DNA of 64,000 nt from Deltaproteobacteria bacterium. GTDB taxonomy: Bacteria; Desulfobacterota; Deferrimicrobia; Deferrimicrobiales; Deferrimicrobiaceae. A program made the translations under genes and the position numbers. A model generated the notes under the pieces. That model was not told the DNA's origin. It worked only from the letters and a program-made list of their open reading frames with translations, and made no database searches. The stretch spans positions 141,523 through 205,522 of the forward strand of contig JACRCO010000053.1 in assembly GCA_016218975.1 (NCBI GenBank), given 5' to 3'. Position 1 is the first letter of the stretch; the number at the start of each line of letters is the position of its first letter. This document shows, in pieces, positions 578 to 8,837 of this stretch.

Positions 578-1180
578 GTGAATCCCGGTTACGACGACAC
601 GAGTCGCACGGAAGCTGTGCTCCATGGCGCGGAGCGGCTGCGGGGGAATCCCTGCAGTGTTTGCTCCCGTCCGATCTGCGGCCATGAAGCGGTCGTGTGC
701 ATCGCCATGGGTTACGGAAGCGCCCCGCACTGCCTGGATTGCATGGCCGACGGCCAACGGACCGGACATGATGAGTTTCGGGATCGGTTGCTTGCGTACA
801 TCATGGAACGGGAATGTTACCGGACGGGTTGGCTCTCCGCGGGCGAAGCGGAAGGATTCGGGCGGGCAGTGAATCCCGATTGTCTCTGGCGGAACGGGGC
901 AGGCGGGTCATTCGAATCCGTCGTTGCGGGGGAAGGAATGGGGCGCGAACGTACGGGTGGGCCTCCTGCCGTCGAATGGGATGCGGGAGATTCAGGGTGC
1001 GGAGAACTGGTCATGGAGCTGCGGCTCCGGCTCAATGCGATGAAACCGGGCGATTTGCTGAAATTGACCGCCACGGACCCGGGAGCAAGGGAGGACCTGC
1101 CCGCCTGGTGCAGGCTTACCGGGCACGCGCTTGTCGAAAGCGGACATCCGATATACCTGATACGTCGAAGGGAGGATTAG
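578..1180 (+). CDS. TusA-like sulfurtransferase with Cys-rich N-terminal extension
   Basis: 200 aa, GTG start with GGGGAGG upstream. The C-terminal part (about 131-197) has the TusA/SirA fold signature: a D-x-G-x-x-C-like motif with Cys141, then MKPGDLLKLTATDPGAREDL and a final hydrophobic strand. The canonical CPxP is replaced by CGEL, so the active-site Cys is kept but the prolines are lost. The first 60 residues carry Cys26, 29, 34, 41, 52 and 55, which suggests a metal-binding or redox module. TusA proteins carry sulfur as a persulfide. A DsrE-like gene 3 bases downstream and a second TusA-like domain fused to a MetE domain in the next gene suggest a sulfur relay. Its substrate is unknown. 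Confidence 0.75.
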   Translation: MNPGYDDTSRTEAVLHGAERLRGNPCSVCSRPICGHEAVVCIAMGYGSAPHCLDCMADGQRTGHDEFRDRLLAYIMERECYRTGWLSAGEAEGFGRAVNPDCLWRNGAGGSFESVVAGEGMGRERTGGPPAVEWDAGDSGCGELVMELRLRLNAMKPGDLLKLTATDPGAREDLPAWCRLTGHALVESGHPIYLIRRRED

Positions 1181-1183
1181 AAC

Positions 1184-1546
1184 ATGGCGGGAAAGCTCTG
1201 CGTCAGCCTCACGAATGCGAAAAACGACTCCGACAAGGCCACCGTTGCGTTCGTCGTCGCCAACGCGTCCGCGGCGTCCGAGAAGGAAACCCTGGTATTC
1301 TTAAGCACGGAAGGAGTCCGGCTGGCCGTCAAGGGATACGCGGAAGACATCCATGAAGAAGGATTCGCACCGCTACGGGAACTTATGGGGAATTTCGTCA
1401 AGGCGGGAGGGAAGATCTACGTATGCTCCCCCTGTTTCAGGAAACGCGGGCTGGACGAAGGGAAGCTCGTGGAAGGCGCGACGATCGTAGGCGGCGCGAA
1501 GCTCGTGGAGTTTCTCGGGGACGGCGCGCCCTGCATCTCCTACTGA
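1184..1546 (+). CDS. DsrE/DsrF-like family protein
   Basis: 120 aa. The Rossmann-like DsrE fold is suggested by the N-terminal beta strand, the ETLVFLSTEGVRLAVKGY segment and the KAGGKIYVCSPCFRKRGL motif. Cys81 sits where DsrE/TusD-type proteins carry their persulfide Cys, with Cys84 beside it. The start lies 3 bases after the TusA-like gene's stop, so the two are co-transcribed. DsrE-like proteins exchange sulfur with TusA in the Tus and Dsr relays, which supports a joint function. No DsrF/H or TusBC partners are present in the window. Confidence 0.82.
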   Translation: MAGKLCVSLTNAKNDSDKATVAFVVANASAASEKETLVFLSTEGVRLAVKGYAEDIHEEGFAPLRELMGNFVKAGGKIYVCSPCFRKRGLDEGKLVEGATIVGGAKLVEFLGDGAPCISY

Positions 1547-1567
1547 CTTTTTTATCGTGAGAAGCGC

Positions 1568-3103
1568 ATGAAGCCCGTGGAACGCCATCCTTTCGAGCCT
1601 GACGTCCGCTTCGACGGCGGAAGCCTGGATTGCGGAAGCGGCCTGCTGCTGTTGATCCGAAAAGCTATCGATCCGCTGGAACGCGGAGGGCTGCTGGAAA
1701 TCCTTTCCACCGAGTCTTCAGTGAAGGAAGACCTCCCCTCCTGGTGCCGGATGACCGGGAACGAACTGGTGTCGTGGACCCGGTCGGGAACCCGATGCAG
1801 TTTCCTGATTTGCAAGGGAGCCCTTCGGGAGCGGACAACCATCACTCCGGCTTCATCAGGGCTTCCGGGCGTCCCTTCGCAAACGGCCGTTCCGGTTCGG
1901 ATCCCGGAGACCCTGCCGGAGCCCGCGAACGTGCCCGAGGTCCCGCCTCTATCAATCACGGGAATCGGAAGCTGGCCCCGCCCTTCCTGGCTGCTGCGGG
2001 CGATCCACGAGCACCTGGAAGGACGGCTGCCCGAAGCGGAATTCCAGTCCCAGGCCGACGACGCGGTACGTCTTTCCATAGCTGCGCAGCTTCGAGCGGG
2101 TGTCGACATCGTCACCGACGGCGAGCAGCGGCGCGACAGCTATGCAAGCTTCGTGGGCGGCCTGCTGGACAACTGCCAGCTCATCCCTTTGACCGACCTG
2201 TTGCCGCTCGTGGACGATCCCGGCAAGTTCGAGAAGGAGCTGCGGGCGCTCGACGTCCCCGCCGGGGAAGTGCGCCATCCCGCGGTCTTCGGACCCTTGG
2301 GAAGGAGCCGTCCTTTGGCGGTCCACGAACTCGAATTCGTGAAAACGTTGTCGGACAAGGCCGTCAAGGTGGCGCTCCCGGGGCCGTATCTCCTCACCCG
2401 CACCATGTGGCTCGAGTGCGTATCCGACCGCGCATACGATTCCCGCGAGAGCCTGGCTGACGACATCGTCCGCGTGCTGCGGGAAGAATTGCATTTTCTC
2501 CTTGCGGCAGGCGCCTCGATCGTTCAGTTCGACGAACCGGTTCTCACCGAGGTCGTCTTCACAGGAGCGAAGAAGACCCGGTCGTTCATGTGCGGGGCAT
2601 TGAGCGGGAAAAAGGATGCGCGACATGAGCTTTCCTTCGCCGTCGACCTCCTGAATCGCGTTGTGAAGGGGGTTCCCTCGTCGCGGACGGCGGTCCATAT
2701 CTGCCGCGGGAACTGGACGACCGACGAATCGGTGGCGCTTTCGGGGGATTACCGTCCGTTGCTGCCGTACCTGAAGTCCGCGAAAGCCGGAACGTTCTTC
2801 CTGGAATTGTGCACTCCCCGCTCCGGCGAAATCGAAGTTCTAAAAGGGCTCCCGGAAGAATGCCGTATCGGCGTTGGAGTCGTGAATCAGAAGGCAAGCC
2901 GGGTCGAGACGGTGGACGAAATCGTCGCCAAGGCGGAAAAGGCGATCCGTATCTTCGGTCACCGGCGTATCCTGCTGAATCCAGACTGCGGCTTTGCCAC
3001 TTTCGCCGACAACCCCGTATCGGAATCGAAGGTCGCCGAGGCGAAACTGCGCTCGATATCCCTTGCCGCAGGGGAGCTGAAGCGGAAGTACCGGCTTTCC
3101 TGA
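1568..3103 (+). CDS. Fusion of TusA-like domain with core MetE-type methionine synthase
   Basis: 511 aa in one continuous frame. Residues 11-85 are TusA-like: Cys22 is at the active-site position but in CGSG instead of CPxP, followed by a typical VKEDLPSWCRMTG segment. A Pro-rich linker (about 93-127) leads to a MetE C-terminal barrel (about 129-510). All zinc ligands expected for MetE are visible: His377-x-Cys379, Glu413 and Cys474 (NPDCGF). The N-terminal folate-binding half of full-length MetE is absent, as in core-MetE enzymes, which take methyl groups from a methyl-corrinoid. It may make methionine from homocysteine, with the TusA domain supplying or sensing sulfur; that link is inference. 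It is the last gene of the TusA-DsrE operon. Confidence 0.82.
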   Translation: MKPVERHPFEPDVRFDGGSLDCGSGLLLLIRKAIDPLERGGLLEILSTESSVKEDLPSWCRMTGNELVSWTRSGTRCSFLICKGALRERTTITPASSGLPGVPSQTAVPVRIPETLPEPANVPEVPPLSITGIGSWPRPSWLLRAIHEHLEGRLPEAEFQSQADDAVRLSIAAQLRAGVDIVTDGEQRRDSYASFVGGLLDNCQLIPLTDLLPLVDDPGKFEKELRALDVPAGEVRHPAVFGPLGRSRPLAVHELEFVKTLSDKAVKVALPGPYLLTRTMWLECVSDRAYDSRESLADDIVRVLREELHFLLAAGASIVQFDEPVLTEVVFTGAKKTRSFMCGALSGKKDARHELSFAVDLLNRVVKGVPSSRTAVHICRGNWTTDESVALSGDYRPLLPYLKSAKAGTFFLELCTPRSGEIEVLKGLPEECRIGVGVVNQKASRVETVDEIVAKAEKAIRIFGHRRILLNPDCGFATFADNPVSESKVAEAKLRSISLAAGELKRKYRLS

Positions 3104-3145
3104 CGGATCTCTCTATTCTTACAAGCAGAATTCCAGCAGGCAGCA

Positions 3146-3186
3146 TTGACATACCTCCAAACCTAATGTACATTTGTTCTGTACAT
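3146..3186 (+). promoter_or_regulatory. VapBC promoter with inverted-repeat operator
   Basis: TTGACA (3146-3151), a 17-base spacer and TACATT (3169-3174). ATGTACA (3166-3172) and TGTACAT (3180-3186) form an inverted repeat across the -10 region. This is the usual place for autoregulation by an antitoxin-toxin complex. Confidence 0.7.
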
Positions 3187-3201
3187 GATGGAGGCGTAAG
3201 G

Positions 3202-3432
3202 ATGCTGAAAGTCAACGTAACCGAGCTTCGTGCAAATCTCCCGAGCTACCTCTGCAAGGTTCGAAAAGGAGAGGAGATCGCCGTCACCTCCCGGGGAAGC
3301 GTGATCGCCCGGATCCTGCCGGACCGTGGTGGAAGTCAGGCCGCCCGCGAGCGGCTTGCCGCTCTCCGCAAGAAGTGCCGGATCGGGGACGTGATCTCTC
3401 CGATCGGAGAGGCGTGGGAATCCGCGAGATGA
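3202..3432 (+). CDS. VapB-type antitoxin (Phd/YefM-like)
   Basis: 76 aa. The N-terminus (MLKVNVTELRANLPSYLCKV) and the EEIAVTSRGSVIARILP segment match Phd/YefM antitoxins, with an N-terminal DNA-binding half and a flexible toxin-binding tail. The ATG at 3202 is preceded by GGAGG. The stop overlaps the toxin start as ATGA, so translation is coupled. It probably represses its own promoter through the inverted repeat just upstream. Confidence 0.85.
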   Translation: MLKVNVTELRANLPSYLCKVRKGEEIAVTSRGSVIARILPDRGGSQAARERLAALRKKCRIGDVISPIGEAWESAR

Positions 3433-3827
3433 TCGTTCTCGACACTTGCGCCATGATCTTCGATGCCCTCGATCCGAACCGTTTGGGACGAAGAGCCCGG
3501 AAGGAAATGGATGCGGCTTCCGGGAACGGGACGGCGGCCTGCAGCGACATTTCCCTATGGGAGATCGCGATGCTGGTTGCCAAGGGGAGGCTGGATCCCG
3601 GCACCGACGCCATCACCTTCACCGACCTTCTTGTCACGTCCCGCAACCTGAAGGTGATGCCGATCACGCCGGAGATCGCCCATCTCTCGGCAAGTTACAG
3701 GGGATTTACCCACGCCGACCCCGCCGACCGGATCATCGCCTCGACCGCATTGTTCATGAAAGCCCCGCTGCTGACGCCGGATGCCCGCCTGCGTGCGGTG
3801 AAAGGTCTCAGGGTGCTTTGGGGCTGA
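3429..3827 (+). CDS. VapC-type PIN-domain toxin ribonuclease
   Basis: 132 aa. PIN-domain acidic residues are visible: Asp5 (MIVLDTCAMIFDAL), Glu45 (ISLWEIAML), Asp100 (ADPADRIIAS) and Asp118 (TPDAR). These coordinate Mg in the RNase active site. The ATG at 3429 overlaps the antitoxin stop; a longer reading from 3375 would overlap the antitoxin and is unlikely. It is a normal full-length toxin. The tRNA or rRNA target cannot be predicted. Confidence 0.9.
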   Translation: MIVLDTCAMIFDALDPNRLGRRARKEMDAASGNGTAACSDISLWEIAMLVAKGRLDPGTDAITFTDLLVTSRNLKVMPITPEIAHLSASYRGFTHADPADRIIASTALFMKAPLLTPDARLRAVKGLRVLWG

Positions 3828-3848: not shown

Positions 3849-4139
3849 TCACCCGCAGGTCGAGGATTCCCCCGAGCATCCGCAGGATGGCTCCTTTCCG
3901 GCCATCAAGCCGGCGAGGACAGCGGTGGCGCATCCGACTCCGGCCTTCACCCGGATTGCCTCCCGCTCGCAGTTTTTCGCGCAGGCACCGCATTCCATGC
4001 AGGCGCCGCGGTCGGCCAATGCAGCGCGTTTGTTTTCCATCCCGAACACCGCGTGCGGGCATACCTTGACGCACATGCCGCATCCGTCGCACCTCTCAGG
4101 TATGAATTCCAGCGTAACCGCGTCCTCAAGGTATCTCAT
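3849..4139 (-). CDS. hgcB: HgcB, 2[4Fe-4S] ferredoxin of mercury methylation
   Basis: 96 aa. Two CxxCxxCxxxC clusters: Cys17/20/23/27 and Cys47/50/53/57, the second in the HgcB-like form CMECGAC. They are followed by the conserved lone Cys70 (GVGCA) and a Cys-containing tail (Cys86, 88, 95) in place of the usual vicinal C-terminal pair. HgcB is thought to reduce HgcA's corrinoid and to handle Hg(II) through these thiols. The start at 4139 is 10 bases after the hgcA stop, with GAGGT as ribosome-binding site; a longer reading to 4205 would overlap hgcA. Adjacency to hgcA makes the assignment firm. Confidence 0.95.
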   Translation of the reverse strand: MRYLEDAVTLEFIPERCDGCGMCVKVCPHAVFGMENKRAALADRGACMECGACAKNCEREAIRVKAGVGCATAVLAGLMAGKEPSCGCSGESSTCG

Positions 4140-4149
4140 TGTCCGGACC

Positions 4150-5256
4150 TCACGCGGCGAACAGGCCGCCCAGCCAGAATCCGAAGCCAATCGCGGCAGC
4201 AGCAACCTGCAACGGCAATGCGAACCGCATTTCGCGGCGCACTCCGCTCAGGGAGGTAAAGGTCGATGCCCCGGTGAAGTTCATCACAACGAAACTGGTC
4301 AGGGCCGGCGTAATCGCCATCCAGGCCGCCGCATGGAGCCAAGATGCAACTCCGCCGTTCCGGAAAATGTCCCATGCTCCAATCCCCGCGACGAGAACGA
4401 GTCCCAGCGCGGCGCCCTTCGCCGAGAATGCCCGTCCGGGAAGCCAGGGCAGAAGGATCGGTCCGAGAACAGCGCCGGCGAGGAAAGCGCCGAGGACGAC
4501 GGCGGCGCTCTTCAGGCCGATGGTGCGGACGCCGGCCAGGCTGTACCCTCCCCCGCTGACACCGCCGAGCAGCAGGAATGCCAGCGCCAGGAGCACCGCG
4601 TATTTCGCTCCCATGACCAGTTCCACGGGAATCAACACAGCCCGGTCCCGCAACCGGAACCTCACTCTTCGCATGTCGGGAGACGCCTTCATGCCGGAAT
4701 CCAGGAAAGCGGGCAGGTCTTCCGCCTGGACCGGGCCATATTCCACCCGGAACCCGCATCGCCTTTGGACCTCGTGCGCGCTCACTCCCGGCGCCCCGAG
4801 CTGCGGGACCACGAGGGTGCGGTGCGAAACCACTCTCTCAAGCCCGCTTTCCTGTACACGACGGACGATTTCGTCGGTGCCGAAGGTGCCCTTGCCCGCC
4901 GAACACCAGACGTTGACACCGTCGGTGTCGAGCACCAGGATCCAGGCGTCCCGGCCCGGGAGCACGCTGCGTAGCCGGTCGAAGCTCATCTTGTAGTTGG
5001 CGGAAACGAGCACCGTGGATCCGATACCGGGATTTCCGGCCGCGTACAGCCCCGGGGGCACACGGTAGTTCATTCGTCCGATATCCCAGCGCGCCTTAAC
5101 GGAGCCGAGACAATCGCGAAAGTCCAGCGCGGTCTGTACTCTCGGCACTTTGCCGGATGCGGTAACCACGAAGCCGTCGATCCAGGGTGCATCGACACGC
5201 CTTCGCACCGTGAAGGACCTCAACGTCCTTTGGGAATAAGCGTCGATAGACGGCAT
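4150..5256 (-). CDS. hgcA: HgcA, corrinoid-dependent mercury methyltransferase
   Basis: 368 aa from ATG at 5256 (GAGGTTGAG before it). HgcA transfers a methyl group from a corrinoid to Hg(II), forming methylmercury. The cap-helix motif is NVWCSAGK at 115-122, with Cys118 the cobalt-coordinating residue, followed by the family-typical GTFGTDE. Residues 1-195 form the corrinoid-binding domain. About five hydrophobic helices follow (about 210-235, 246-270, 280-295, 305-325, 347-366). The usual motif is N(V/I)WCA(A/G)GK, so Ser119 is a variant. It lies in an apparent operon with arsM and a selenoprotein. The translation begins inside the end of the upstream DUF2917-type gene. Confidence 0.96.
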   Translation of the reverse strand: MPSIDAYSQRTLRSFTVRRRVDAPWIDGFVVTASGKVPRVQTALDFRDCLGSVKARWDIGRMNYRVPPGLYAAGNPGIGSTVLVSANYKMSFDRLRSVLPGRDAWILVLDTDGVNVWCSAGKGTFGTDEIVRRVQESGLERVVSHRTLVVPQLGAPGVSAHEVQRRCGFRVEYGPVQAEDLPAFLDSGMKASPDMRRVRFRLRDRAVLIPVELVMGAKYAVLLALAFLLLGGVSGGGYSLAGVRTIGLKSAAVVLGAFLAGAVLGPILLPWLPGRAFSAKGAALGLVLVAGIGAWDIFRNGGVASWLHAAAWMAITPALTSFVVMNFTGASTFTSLSGVRREMRFALPLQVAAAAIGFGFWLGGLFAA

Positions 5257-5522
5257 CTCAACCTCTTCCAGGACAGACGGCGTCGGAGTTCCCCCGTCGC
5301 CCTGCTGCGGAGCCTGATGGAGATTATCCCATCCTTTATAATCTGCACGGTTATCCGTCCATCCCTTCGGGCCGCGAAAACCATACCGGATGTCAGCATG
5401 TAATCCCTCGAGTCGCAACATTGCGTGATCCATGCATCGCCGGATTCGCAGGCGATCTCCACTCCCGCCATGGGGCCATCCACGTTTACAATGTTCTTCT
5501 TCGGAATTCGTATCTCCAACAT
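5220..5522 (-). CDS. DUF2917-like small protein upstream of hgcA
   Basis: 100 aa, ATG at 5522 with a strong AGGAGAGG ribosome-binding site. Residues 12-72 resemble the cupin-like DUF2917 pattern (GVEIACESGDAWITQ, then SRDYMLTSGMVFAARRDGRI). A vicinal pair, Cys35-Cys36, sits where the family usually has acidic or polar residues, which suggests metal or metalloid binding. The C-terminal 12 codons overlap the start of hgcA in another frame, so the two genes are translationally linked. Function unknown. Confidence 0.68.
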   Translation of the reverse strand: MLEIRIPKKNIVNVDGPMAGVEIACESGDAWITQCCDSRDYMLTSGMVFAARRDGRITVQIIKDGIISIRLRSRATGELRRRLSWKRLRCRLSTLIPKGR

Positions 5523-5557
5523 GTTCCTCTCCTGCGGTCATCCCATCGGGATCCGCG

Positions 5558-5857
5558 TCAGCACTTGCAGGGGGGGTCCTCCTTCAGGGGGTTCCCCTTC
5601 CCTCGGGCTTCCCGGAACTGGGCCCTGACCCTTCCGGCGGACACGGCCATTACGATCGCCTGGACCGCGCCGATTTCCTCCGCCGAAACGCCGGATTCCT
5701 TGGCCACGCCAAGGTAGTGTTCCATTCAGGGATAGCATCCCAGTGCCATGGCGGCGGCGAGATGAACCATGACCGTCGTCTTTTCGGGCAGAAATTCGTT
5801 GCGTCGCGCCGAATCGTAGAAGTCGGAATACGCCTTCTTCTGGTTTCGCGGCAGCAT
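5558..5857 (-). CDS. Selenoprotein of the AhpD/carboxymuconolactone decarboxylase family (in-frame UGA)
   Basis: Read from ATG at 5857 (GAGGAG upstream) through an in-frame TGA at 5726-5728 to TGA at 5558-5560: 99 aa with Sec at position 44. The reading gives MALGCYP-U-MEHYLGVAKES, so Cys41-x-x-Sec44 replaces the CxxC and the conserved His of AhpD-like peroxidases follows three residues later (Sec44-Met-Glu-His47). Sequence on both sides of the TGA keeps family character. A hairpin ideally placed for a bacterial SECIS follows the TGA. The protein ends in CKC. It starts 54 bases after arsM; CMD-like selenoproteins near arsenic-methylation genes are known. Ordinary gene callers will miss it or split it. 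Probable role: thiol/selenol redox step in metal(loid) handling. Confidence 0.85.
5698..5714 (-). promoter_or_regulatory. SECIS-like hairpin for selenocysteine insertion
   Basis: On the transcript, CCUUGGC and GCCAAGG form a perfect 7-bp stem with a GUG loop. The stem begins 12 bases after the UGA and the loop lies 19-21 bases after it, within the window in which bacterial SECIS loops (often containing GU) bind SelB. It lies inside the coding sequence, as bacterial SECIS elements do. Confidence 0.75.
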
Positions 5858-5911: not shown

Positions 5912-6739
5912 TTAACCCGGCTTCCTGCCGAAGACACGTACGCTCAAGACGGCCGACGCGGCTTCGCGTATTTCCTCAATGGGAATGCCGAAGCTCCCGG
6001 CGATATTACGGGCATAATCTTCCGTCCCGCTTTCCCCGATTTCGAACAGGCTCTCATGGATGACGCTCACTTCCCTGAACCCCGCCTCTTCCACGAGTCG
6101 GAGGTAATCGTCACGCAGGACGGCGCCCGCGATGCAGCCGGCGTAGGCGGCGAGCGAGCCGGCCATGCCTGCCGGCAACTCCCGTGAAAGCACAAGGTCC
6201 GAGATCATGACCCTGCCGCCGGGCTTGAGCACCCGGTATGCCTCGGCGAAGACCCTTTCCTTGTTCGTGGAGAGATTAATGACGCAGTTGGAGATAACGG
6301 CGTCGACGGAGCCGTCGGCCGCCGGAAGGTTCTCGATTTCCCCGAGCCGGAATTCGACGTTTTCGTAGCCGCCCTTTCTTGCGTTCCCCCGCGCCTTCTC
6401 GACCATCTCCGGGGTCATGTCCACGCCGATCACGCGGCCCGATGGTCCGACCTCCCGTGCAGCCAGAAAGCAGTCGAAACCCGCACCTGCACCCAGGTCC
6501 AGGACCGTTTCCCCCTCCCTTAGCGAGGCGAGGGCGATGGGATTGCCGCAACCCAGCCCGAGGTTGGCGCCTTCGGGGACCGCCTTGAGTTCATCTTCAG
6601 AGTACCCTATCTTGCGGCTCGCCTTTTCGACGGCTCCGCCGGTTCCGCAAGCCGTGTCCGTTCCGCAACAAGATCCTCCCTGCCGGGCGATGCCTGCGTA
6701 CCGTTCGCGAACGTATTTCCTGACCTTGATCTCTTCCAT
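5912..6739 (-). CDS. arsM: Arsenite S-adenosylmethionine methyltransferase
   Basis: 275 aa. Motif I of the SAM-binding fold is VLDLGAGAGFDC, followed by GRVIGVDMTPEMVEKAR and the arsM-type VISNCVINLSTNKERVFAEA, whose Cys is one of the As(III)-binding cysteines; a second candidate lies in AYAGCIAG. The N-terminus has the SCCG pair common in ArsM. It methylates As(III) to methyl- and dimethylarsenicals. The start at 6739 was chosen because AGGAGG lies 8 bases upstream; earlier in-frame ATGs lie too close to that site. It follows the AbrB-like gene and precedes the selenoprotein and hgcAB. Confidence 0.93.
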   Translation of the reverse strand: MEEIKVRKYVRERYAGIARQGGSCCGTDTACGTGGAVEKASRKIGYSEDELKAVPEGANLGLGCGNPIALASLREGETVLDLGAGAGFDCFLAAREVGPSGRVIGVDMTPEMVEKARGNARKGGYENVEFRLGEIENLPAADGSVDAVISNCVINLSTNKERVFAEAYRVLKPGGRVMISDLVLSRELPAGMAGSLAAYAGCIAGAVLRDDYLRLVEEAGFREVSVIHESLFEIGESGTEDYARNIAGSFGIPIEEIREAASAVLSVRVFGRKPG

Positions 6740-6753
6740 TTTCATATCCTCCT

Positions 6754-7038
6754 TCATTCCTTTGTCAGCAGTTCACCCATCAGGGGGCCGAGCACCCCCT
6801 TGACCATTCCGCTGAACTCTTCCACCTTGATTAGCGAGAGACAGCAGACCTTCCCCTCCTTCTCCCAGCTGATCACGGCCAGCTTGTCGCCGCCCTTGAT
6901 GCCCGCCCGGTCGCGCAGTTCCTTGGGGAGCACCGTCTGCCCGCGTTCGTCGACCGTAATGAGCGATTCGACCCGGCAGCCGGCGAACACCTTCCCTTCA
7001 GGCCCGCAGCAGGATGCTCCTTTCGACCTCTTATACAT
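6754..7038 (-). CDS. Cys-rich AbrB/MazE-type transcriptional regulator
   Basis: 94 aa. Residues 24-60 form a SpoVT-AbrB swapped-hairpin DNA-binding domain (LITVDERGQTVLPKELRDRA, then GDKLAVISW). Unusually for this fold it has vicinal pairs Cys10-Cys11 and Cys65-Cys66 plus Cys21, which could sense arsenic or mercury. It is the first gene after the operon promoter, so autoregulation through the palindrome at 7080-7093 is likely. AbrB-type proteins next to hgcAB are known to me from annotation, but I could not check that here. Confidence 0.85.
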   Translation of the reverse strand: MYKRSKGASCCGPEGKVFAGCRVESLITVDERGQTVLPKELRDRAGIKGGDKLAVISWEKEGKVCCLSLIKVEEFSGMVKGVLGPLMGELLTKE

Positions 7039-7939: not shown

Positions 7940-8837
7940 CGCGAGAGACATCCTGGACGCCCGGACGGTCCGGGAACTGCGCAGGGTCCTGCCCAGGGAA
8001 GAACGTTCGGGTTTCGACCGGGAGTCTCTGCCCGAACTGCTGGCGCGGATCTCCGGAAGGCGGGTTCCCGCGAGTTCGTTTGCCCGGACGTGGATTATGG
8101 GCTCGCTTCACGCCAAGATAGCCGCCGGCTATCTCGCCTATTGGATGCGCGGCCTCTTCGCGGATTCGGACGCGAAAGCCCGGCTCAACGGCGAGGCGCG
8201 GCTTGCCGCGGCGCTGGAGCTCTTCGGTGCCATGGGTTACCTTCGAGGCGCCGTCATGAAAATCGGGCAGCTTCTGGCGAATTTGCCGGAGGTAGTGCCG
8301 GAGGAGTTCGCCGAGGTGTTGGCCGCATTGCACTTCGAGGCGCCGCCCATGCACTACTCCATGGTGCGCGAGGTGTTCCTGGACGAGTTCGGACGGGAGC
8401 CCGAAGACGTTTTCGCCTCCTTCGATCGCCAGGCCTTCGCCGCGGCATCCCTGGGCCAGGTGCACCGGGCGCGTCTCGACACGGGGGAAGAGGTCGCCGT
8501 GAAGATCCAGTACCCCGACATCGCCAGGGCCTGCCTGTTCGACGATCCCGCGGAGATGGAACCCGACCGGCTGGCCACCCTTCGGCGGAACATGGACTGG
8601 AACTTCGAACCCTGGCTGACGGAAGGTCCCTTCGACTTCGGCGATGTGGATTTCTACCGTCGGGGGATCGACGGCCTTGTCGCCGTCGCCCGGAAACGCT
8701 ACACCCGGACCCCCCCGCTGCATCTATGGACGAGCCGCTTCATTTTCGGCAGCCGGGCGCTGGCTTACCGCTTGAAAGGGCGCTGCGATTTCCGGCAACT
8801 CCACCGGCAGGAATATCCCGGCCCGGCAGCGCCGTAG
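7929..8837 (+). pseudogene. ABC1/UbiB (AarF)-like kinase with catalytic core deleted in frame
   Basis: 302 aa against roughly 430-450 for the family. The N-terminal half is intact: the KxGQ-like motif (RGAVMKIGQLLANLPEVVPE), AAASLGQVHRA and the ATP-binding Lys (GEEVAVKIQYPDIARA). The sequence then jumps to the family's C-terminal tail (GPFDFGD, then YRRGIDGLVAVARKRY). The stretch that should hold the catalytic HADPHPGN-like loop and DFG is missing, about 130-170 residues, without a frameshift. The product should lack kinase activity. It could be a decaying gene or a scaffold. ATG at 7929 has GGAGG upstream and overlaps the TetR gene. Confidence 0.75.

Follow-up and report, generated by a model that had tools for sequence, protein, structure and literature searches.

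CxxU selenoproteins of the CMD/AhpD type have been known since 2005, and the passages concerned of two papers describe them between 2005 and 2008 (PMC1088965, PMC2398784); the relevant list in PMC13188914 adds selenoproteins of the ArsM/AhpD, MduS, HgcA and HgcB kinds. The Sargasso Sea CMD domain-containing protein and the GOS AhpD-like 2 protein share PF02627, the CxxU motif and a bacterial SECIS with the protein described here, but the passages that deal with them report no arsenic or mercury context (PMC1088965, PMC2398784, PMC13188914). The presence of arsM near hgcAB, and of an AbrB-like gene near hgcA, has already been published (PMC7438021, PMC10349881). Here we analysed a stretch of 64,000 nucleotides from a Deltaproteobacteria bacterium, called the window throughout, in which a small gene interrupted by UGA lies among such genes.

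The window protein falls under every NCBIfam cut-off. Its best match is MduS (NF045649, 2X_seleno_MduS; 57 bits against a cut-off of 380), over residues 9-85 and to the domain only. The C-terminal domain of MduS has the AhpD fold, the CxxU motif and a hairpin in the same register; however, it is fused to a SAM methyltransferase, whereas the window protein is stand-alone. The ArsM/AhpD selenoprotein (NF041537; 42 bits, cut-off 510) unites ArsM with a CxxU AhpD domain, two functions that are adjacent but separate genes in the window, where ArsM scores as the Cys-type PRK11873. The GSU3128 family (seleno)protein (NF041047), a distant AhpD homologue, is likewise small, stand-alone, CxxU/CxxC and AhpD-like, and at 30.8 bits against a cut-off of 110 the window protein is not a member. 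In our tree, the stand-alone Sec proteins were set apart from the MduS and ArsM fusions with weak support.

Results

The gene lies on the reverse strand (Table 1), in a frame (5857-5558) that opens with ATG, holds an in-frame TGA at 5728-5726 and closes with TGA. The read-through product opens with MLPRNQKKAYSDF, continues with ALGCYP-U-MEHYLGVAKES and ends in CKC, the full polypeptide being MLPRNQKKAYSDFYDSARRNEFLPEKTTVMVHLAAAMALGCYPUMEHYLGVAKESGVSAEEIGAVQAIVMAVSAGRVRAQFREARGKGNPLKEDPPCKC. Neither half of the gene is among the listed ORFs of at least 60 amino acids in the standard code; the gene is therefore hidden from ordinary gene finding. An earlier note, made from the letters of this DNA, had read the TGA through to give GCYP-U-MEHY and had claimed that ORF prediction stopping at UGA conceals the gene, and both statements were borne out. 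Reading UGA as Trp was set aside, as TGA terminates the Sec gene itself and other genes in the window. The C-terminal Cys-Lys-Cys (5558-5575) occurs in the window protein and its close relatives L080 and L081 only, and could bind metal.

Table 1. Features of the locus in the window, with the evidence for each.
Feature	Positions	Strand	Evidence
Predicted selenoprotein gene, CMD/AhpD-fold CxxU, 99 aa	5558..5857	-	Stop TGA 5560-5558; 20 Sec forms; dN/dS
UGA codon 44, predicted selenocysteine, Cys41-Tyr-Pro-Sec44	5726..5728	-	UGA in 20 forms; TGC in L014, L089
Predicted bSECIS apical hairpin, CCUUGGC-GUG-GCCAAGG	5698..5714	-	11 nt after UGA; covariation; fits bSECIS model
hgcC, AbrB-like HgcAB-associated protein	6754..7038	-	NF040962, 119 bits (cut-off 70)
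arsM, arsenite SAM methyltransferase (Cys form)	5912..6757	-	PRK11873, 343.5 bits (cut-off 263); directly upstream of Sec gene
DUF2917 protein	5220..5522	-	PF11142, 34.3 bits; directly downstream of Sec gene
hgcA, mercury-methylation corrinoid protein	4150..5259	-	NF040863, 445 bits (cut-off 275)
hgcB ferredoxin (Cys form, GVGC)	3849..4205	-	4Fe-4S domains; place after hgcA

Scanning 84,980 species genomes yielded six relatives, five with TGA and one with TGC at the same codon. More came from profile searches in two phyla, the one to which the window belongs (395 genomes) and that of L011 (249 genomes). The compared set holds 20 Sec forms (the window, L009-L013, L079-L088, L090, L091, L130 and L131) and two close Cys forms, L014 and L089; L095 (G378) was excluded because of a broken contig end. 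The in-frame UGA at codon 44 is kept in the 20 homologues, window counted, from several phyla, and the close homologues without UGA have Cys. Cys41 and position 44 are invariant among the compared homologues, so that the alignment at this position, proposed by the earlier note as a check, gave Sec or Cys, and homologues with neither, which it had named as a point against, were not among them. Comparison of the window with two sufficiently close relatives gave dN/dS of 0.18 and 0.27 for the part ahead of the UGA and of 0.18 and 0.16 for the part after it, and two more distant relatives gave 0.08 and 0.12 after it. These values (0.08-0.27) go beyond chance and point to purifying selection on each side of the UGA. 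A sequencing error or a decaying pseudogene, with TGC or TGT turned into TGA, would take one base change in one genome; however, the same UGA is found in independent assemblies, 19 besides that of the window, and selection is evident on both of its sides, such that error is excluded by the identical position and the probability of this explanation as a whole is negligible.

The first base of the window hairpin is the 12th after the UGA, and seven perfect pairs close a GUG loop, exactly as first described. The MFE was -11.5 kcal/mol for the 42-nt stretch and -9.7 for the hairpin alone. In the relevant passages of PMC13188914, the bSECIS model has a loop of 3-9 nt, a stem of 4-16 bp and a G in the first two loop bases (its Fig 2), with 16-37 nt from UGA to loop and an MFE <= -7.5; the window hairpin agrees with that model (3-nt loop GUG, 7 bp, 18 nt to the loop, -11.5), as the earlier note had expected of a bacterial SECIS. 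All 20 Sec forms have a hairpin 11 nt after the UGA, of 7 bp or, in two of them, 6 bp, and all fit the model. When 18 members were aligned, standard pairs made up 97.6% of the pair cells and 5 of the 7 hairpin pairs had double changes, on both sides; the commonest change combines the silent third base of Leu49 (CTT to CTC) with the first base of codon 53 (A to G), which is coding. In pairing, in double changes and in covariation score alike, the alignment surpassed all 500 shuffles and every slid register. The Cys forms were folded for the same hairpin, which was absent, and an Rfam search of the SECIS region returned no relevant family. Within the window, a hairpin conforming to the model also follows 26 of the 220 comparable TGAs (12%), taken as those flanked on each side by 40 or more open codons, therefore the hairpin alone is weak evidence. 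What goes beyond chance is the comparative signal, that is, the same-codon UGA, the Cys in other homologues, the covariation of the hairpin and the selection on two sides, and not the hairpin itself. The lesson for trusting a SECIS from a single genome is the same: a hairpin alone is not distinctive, covariation is.

A true stop at the UGA, with TGA-ATG starting a second small protein in a split, translationally coupled gene, would account for the ATG found right behind the TGA at 19 of the 20 loci. However, L012 has GTA there, which is no start codon, the Cys homologues are continuous, and such a split would sever the CxxC pair; the hairpin, moreover, covaries in the UGA forms and is missing from the Cys forms, and the genome has the sel genes. 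We consider this split very improbable. The contig of the window also carries a tRNA-Sec gene (anticodon TCA, 74 bits), about 134 kb away from the Sec gene, and the genome has selA (569 bits), selD (322 bits) and selB (304 bits, truncated by the end of a contig), so that all four genes that the earlier note had said to look for were found, selB in part, and its objection of a genome without sel genes falls away. SelD of this genome (L026) is itself a UGA selenoprotein, with SSCAGUASKLG. Decoding of UGA44 as selenocysteine is thus strongly supported by comparison of sequences.

The Pfam CMD domain (PF02627) matched the read-through protein with 42.6 bits (gathering cut-off 23) in a match that runs across the UGA. 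The model built with AlphaFold2 (pLDDT 85.6) consists of helices only, its PDB matches were headed by CMD/AhpD entries (probability 1.00, best E 4e-3, TM 0.6-0.7), and a profile search of the protein gave 3bey and 1vke. An AhpD-like (CMD) fold is therefore supported by the model, in line with the AhpD-like CxxU protein first proposed. AhpD itself (1gu9/1knc of M. tuberculosis; PA0269) shares this helical fold with CxxC/CxxU; however, the window protein is shorter and has Sec for the second Cys. The proton relay of AhpD consists of Glu118, Cys130, Cys133 and His137 (PMC3141380). In the aligned homologues the Cys/Sec pair is kept, but the Glu/His relay is not: Leu, Val or another residue stands for Glu118, and Tyr for His137 in 18 of 19, hydrophobic residues and Tyr also being those of the window protein. 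The test for AhpD-type peroxidase residues thus failed; a peroxidase is not supported, and AhpD gives no direct guide to the chemistry.

The gene order in the window is hgcC-arsM-Sec gene-DUF2917-hgcA-hgcB, with 54 bp between the end of arsM and the Sec gene. The start of hgcA at 5259 is inferred, the mechanical ORF starting at 5541, and the true start of hgcB is probably internal to the ORF listed. On the forward strand, a sulfur/methyl cluster (578-3103) of a TusA-domain ORF, a DsrE-like ORF and an N-terminal TusA fused to a MetE-type methionine synthase catalytic domain converges on hgcB, odd company for mercury-methylation genes; between the MetE-like gene and hgcB lie a weak Phd/YefM-type antitoxin and, after it, a PIN-domain toxin (2809-3827, forward strand).

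Tblastn and HMM scans of the neighbours placed arsenic or mercury genes (arsM, arsP, acr3, arsN2, hgcAB or merA) beside 11 of the 20 Sec forms; at the other nine, inspection by eye and tblastn alone showed no recognised arsenic or mercury gene within about 3 kb. Directly upstream of the Sec gene, arsM is found in the window, L010, L080, L081 and L084, the order hgcC-arsM-Sec gene recurring in L010, L080 and L081. L084 has the order arsR-arsM-Sec gene-acr3-second AhpD, this last being an AhpD-like protein of the Cys type at the operon end (7970-8227 of that locus, reverse strand). The hgcAB pair is directly upstream in L083 and L087 (hgcA-hgcB-Sec gene) and downstream in the window. In L091, merA (537 bits) is two genes upstream; arsN2 is found in L130 (141 bits, over the cut-off) and, after arsP, in L131 (115 bits, just under it); ArsP-family permeases are found in L009 and L010. 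In the phylum sample, hgcA occurs in 10 of 13 genomes with the Sec gene and in 116 of 382 without it (Fisher p = 9e-4, a value that ignores phylogeny and shared anaerobic life), and three adjacencies in 13 genomes would arise by chance with a probability of about 2e-7. One genome (G006) has two hgcC, heading arsM-Sec gene-DUF2917 (L080) and hgcAB (L124), about 86% identical over their shared stretch, which suggests that the two modules share a type of regulator.

Homologous CxxU domains with in-register hairpins are fused to ArsM (NF041537, 605 and 524 bits) and to the MduS methyltransferase (493 and 634 bits), and these fusions argue for a functional link with methyltransferases. Such selenoprotein fusions are also the closest relatives of the window protein so far described. 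The earlier note had tied the selenol to metal(loid) chemistry from its place between arsM and hgcA. One locus alone could not show this, but the recurrence in arsenic/mercury loci supports a metal(loid) link of the Sec family. The nine Sec forms without such a neighbour mean that the role may be more general. In that case, the protein would be a Sec-containing peroxide or thiol-redox protein, an AhpD-like protein reducing a peroxiredoxin or a lipoyl system, and would sit in metal operons only sometimes; its AhpD/CMD fold would suit this, as would the usual redox function of CxxU selenoproteins in the passages concerned of PMC13188914 and PMC1088965. However, the arsenic/mercury neighbours extend across phyla, the homologous domain is fused to ArsM and MduS, and the Glu118 and His137 needed for AhpD peroxidase activity (PMC3141380) are replaced, such that we hold this general role to be rather unlikely.

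Discussion

We favour, with moderate confidence, a CxxU thiol/selenol oxidoreductase serving arsenic/mercury operons, with UGA44 decoded as Sec via the SECIS. Comparative genomics supports decoding through the downstream hairpin with SelA, SelB, SelD and tRNA-Sec. The Cys41-x-x-Sec44 pair would then act as a thiol/selenol-disulfide oxidoreductase in which Sec44, at the place of the second catalytic Cys of AhpD, would be the nucleophile, and Cys41 would resolve the selenenylsulfide. The protein probably works with the enzymes of metal(loid) methylation and detoxification whose genes lie alongside. From the gene order and the ArsM-AhpD and MduS fusions, the most likely role would be to keep the thiols of ArsM-type, perhaps also HgcAB-type, enzymes reduced; alternatively, As(III)/Hg(II), or methylated forms of them, may pass between the protein and these enzymes. 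ArsM turnover needs thiol reductants, and a dedicated selenol reductase would agree with this, as would a partner for As/Hg exchange.

Selenols bind Hg and As tightly, and the Cys-x-x-Sec motif could instead bind As(III) or Hg(II) and pass it to ArsM or HgcA as a carrier or scavenger, with no redox turnover. The adjacency of arsM, hgcAB and merA would suit such a carrier, as would the terminal CKC of the window, L080 and L081 proteins; yet that CxC is not kept past the window's nearest relatives, and redox chemistry would explain a conserved CxxU in a redox fold equally well, making the carrier distinctly unlikely. The gene's recurrence near arsM, arsN2, acr3, arsP, hgcAB and merA in several phyla marks it as a candidate auxiliary factor for the mercury and the arsenic pathway alike.

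The subfamily of stand-alone proteins appears to be new, as do its covarying SECIS and its recurrence in arsenic/mercury operons, although priority is uncertain; a text search of the literature for hgcAB together with carboxymuconolactone decarboxylase returned no paper. The finding adds to hgcAB and arsM loci a hidden gene overlooked by annotation blind to UGA. We think it quite unlikely that the Sec protein is a dedicated third component of mercury and arsenic methylation, feeding Hg(II)/As(III) to HgcAB and ArsM or recycling their thiols; if it were, selenium supply would directly tune the formation of methylmercury and methylarsenic in the carriers. In any case, the gene offers a testable link between selenium supply and the methylation of mercury and arsenic.
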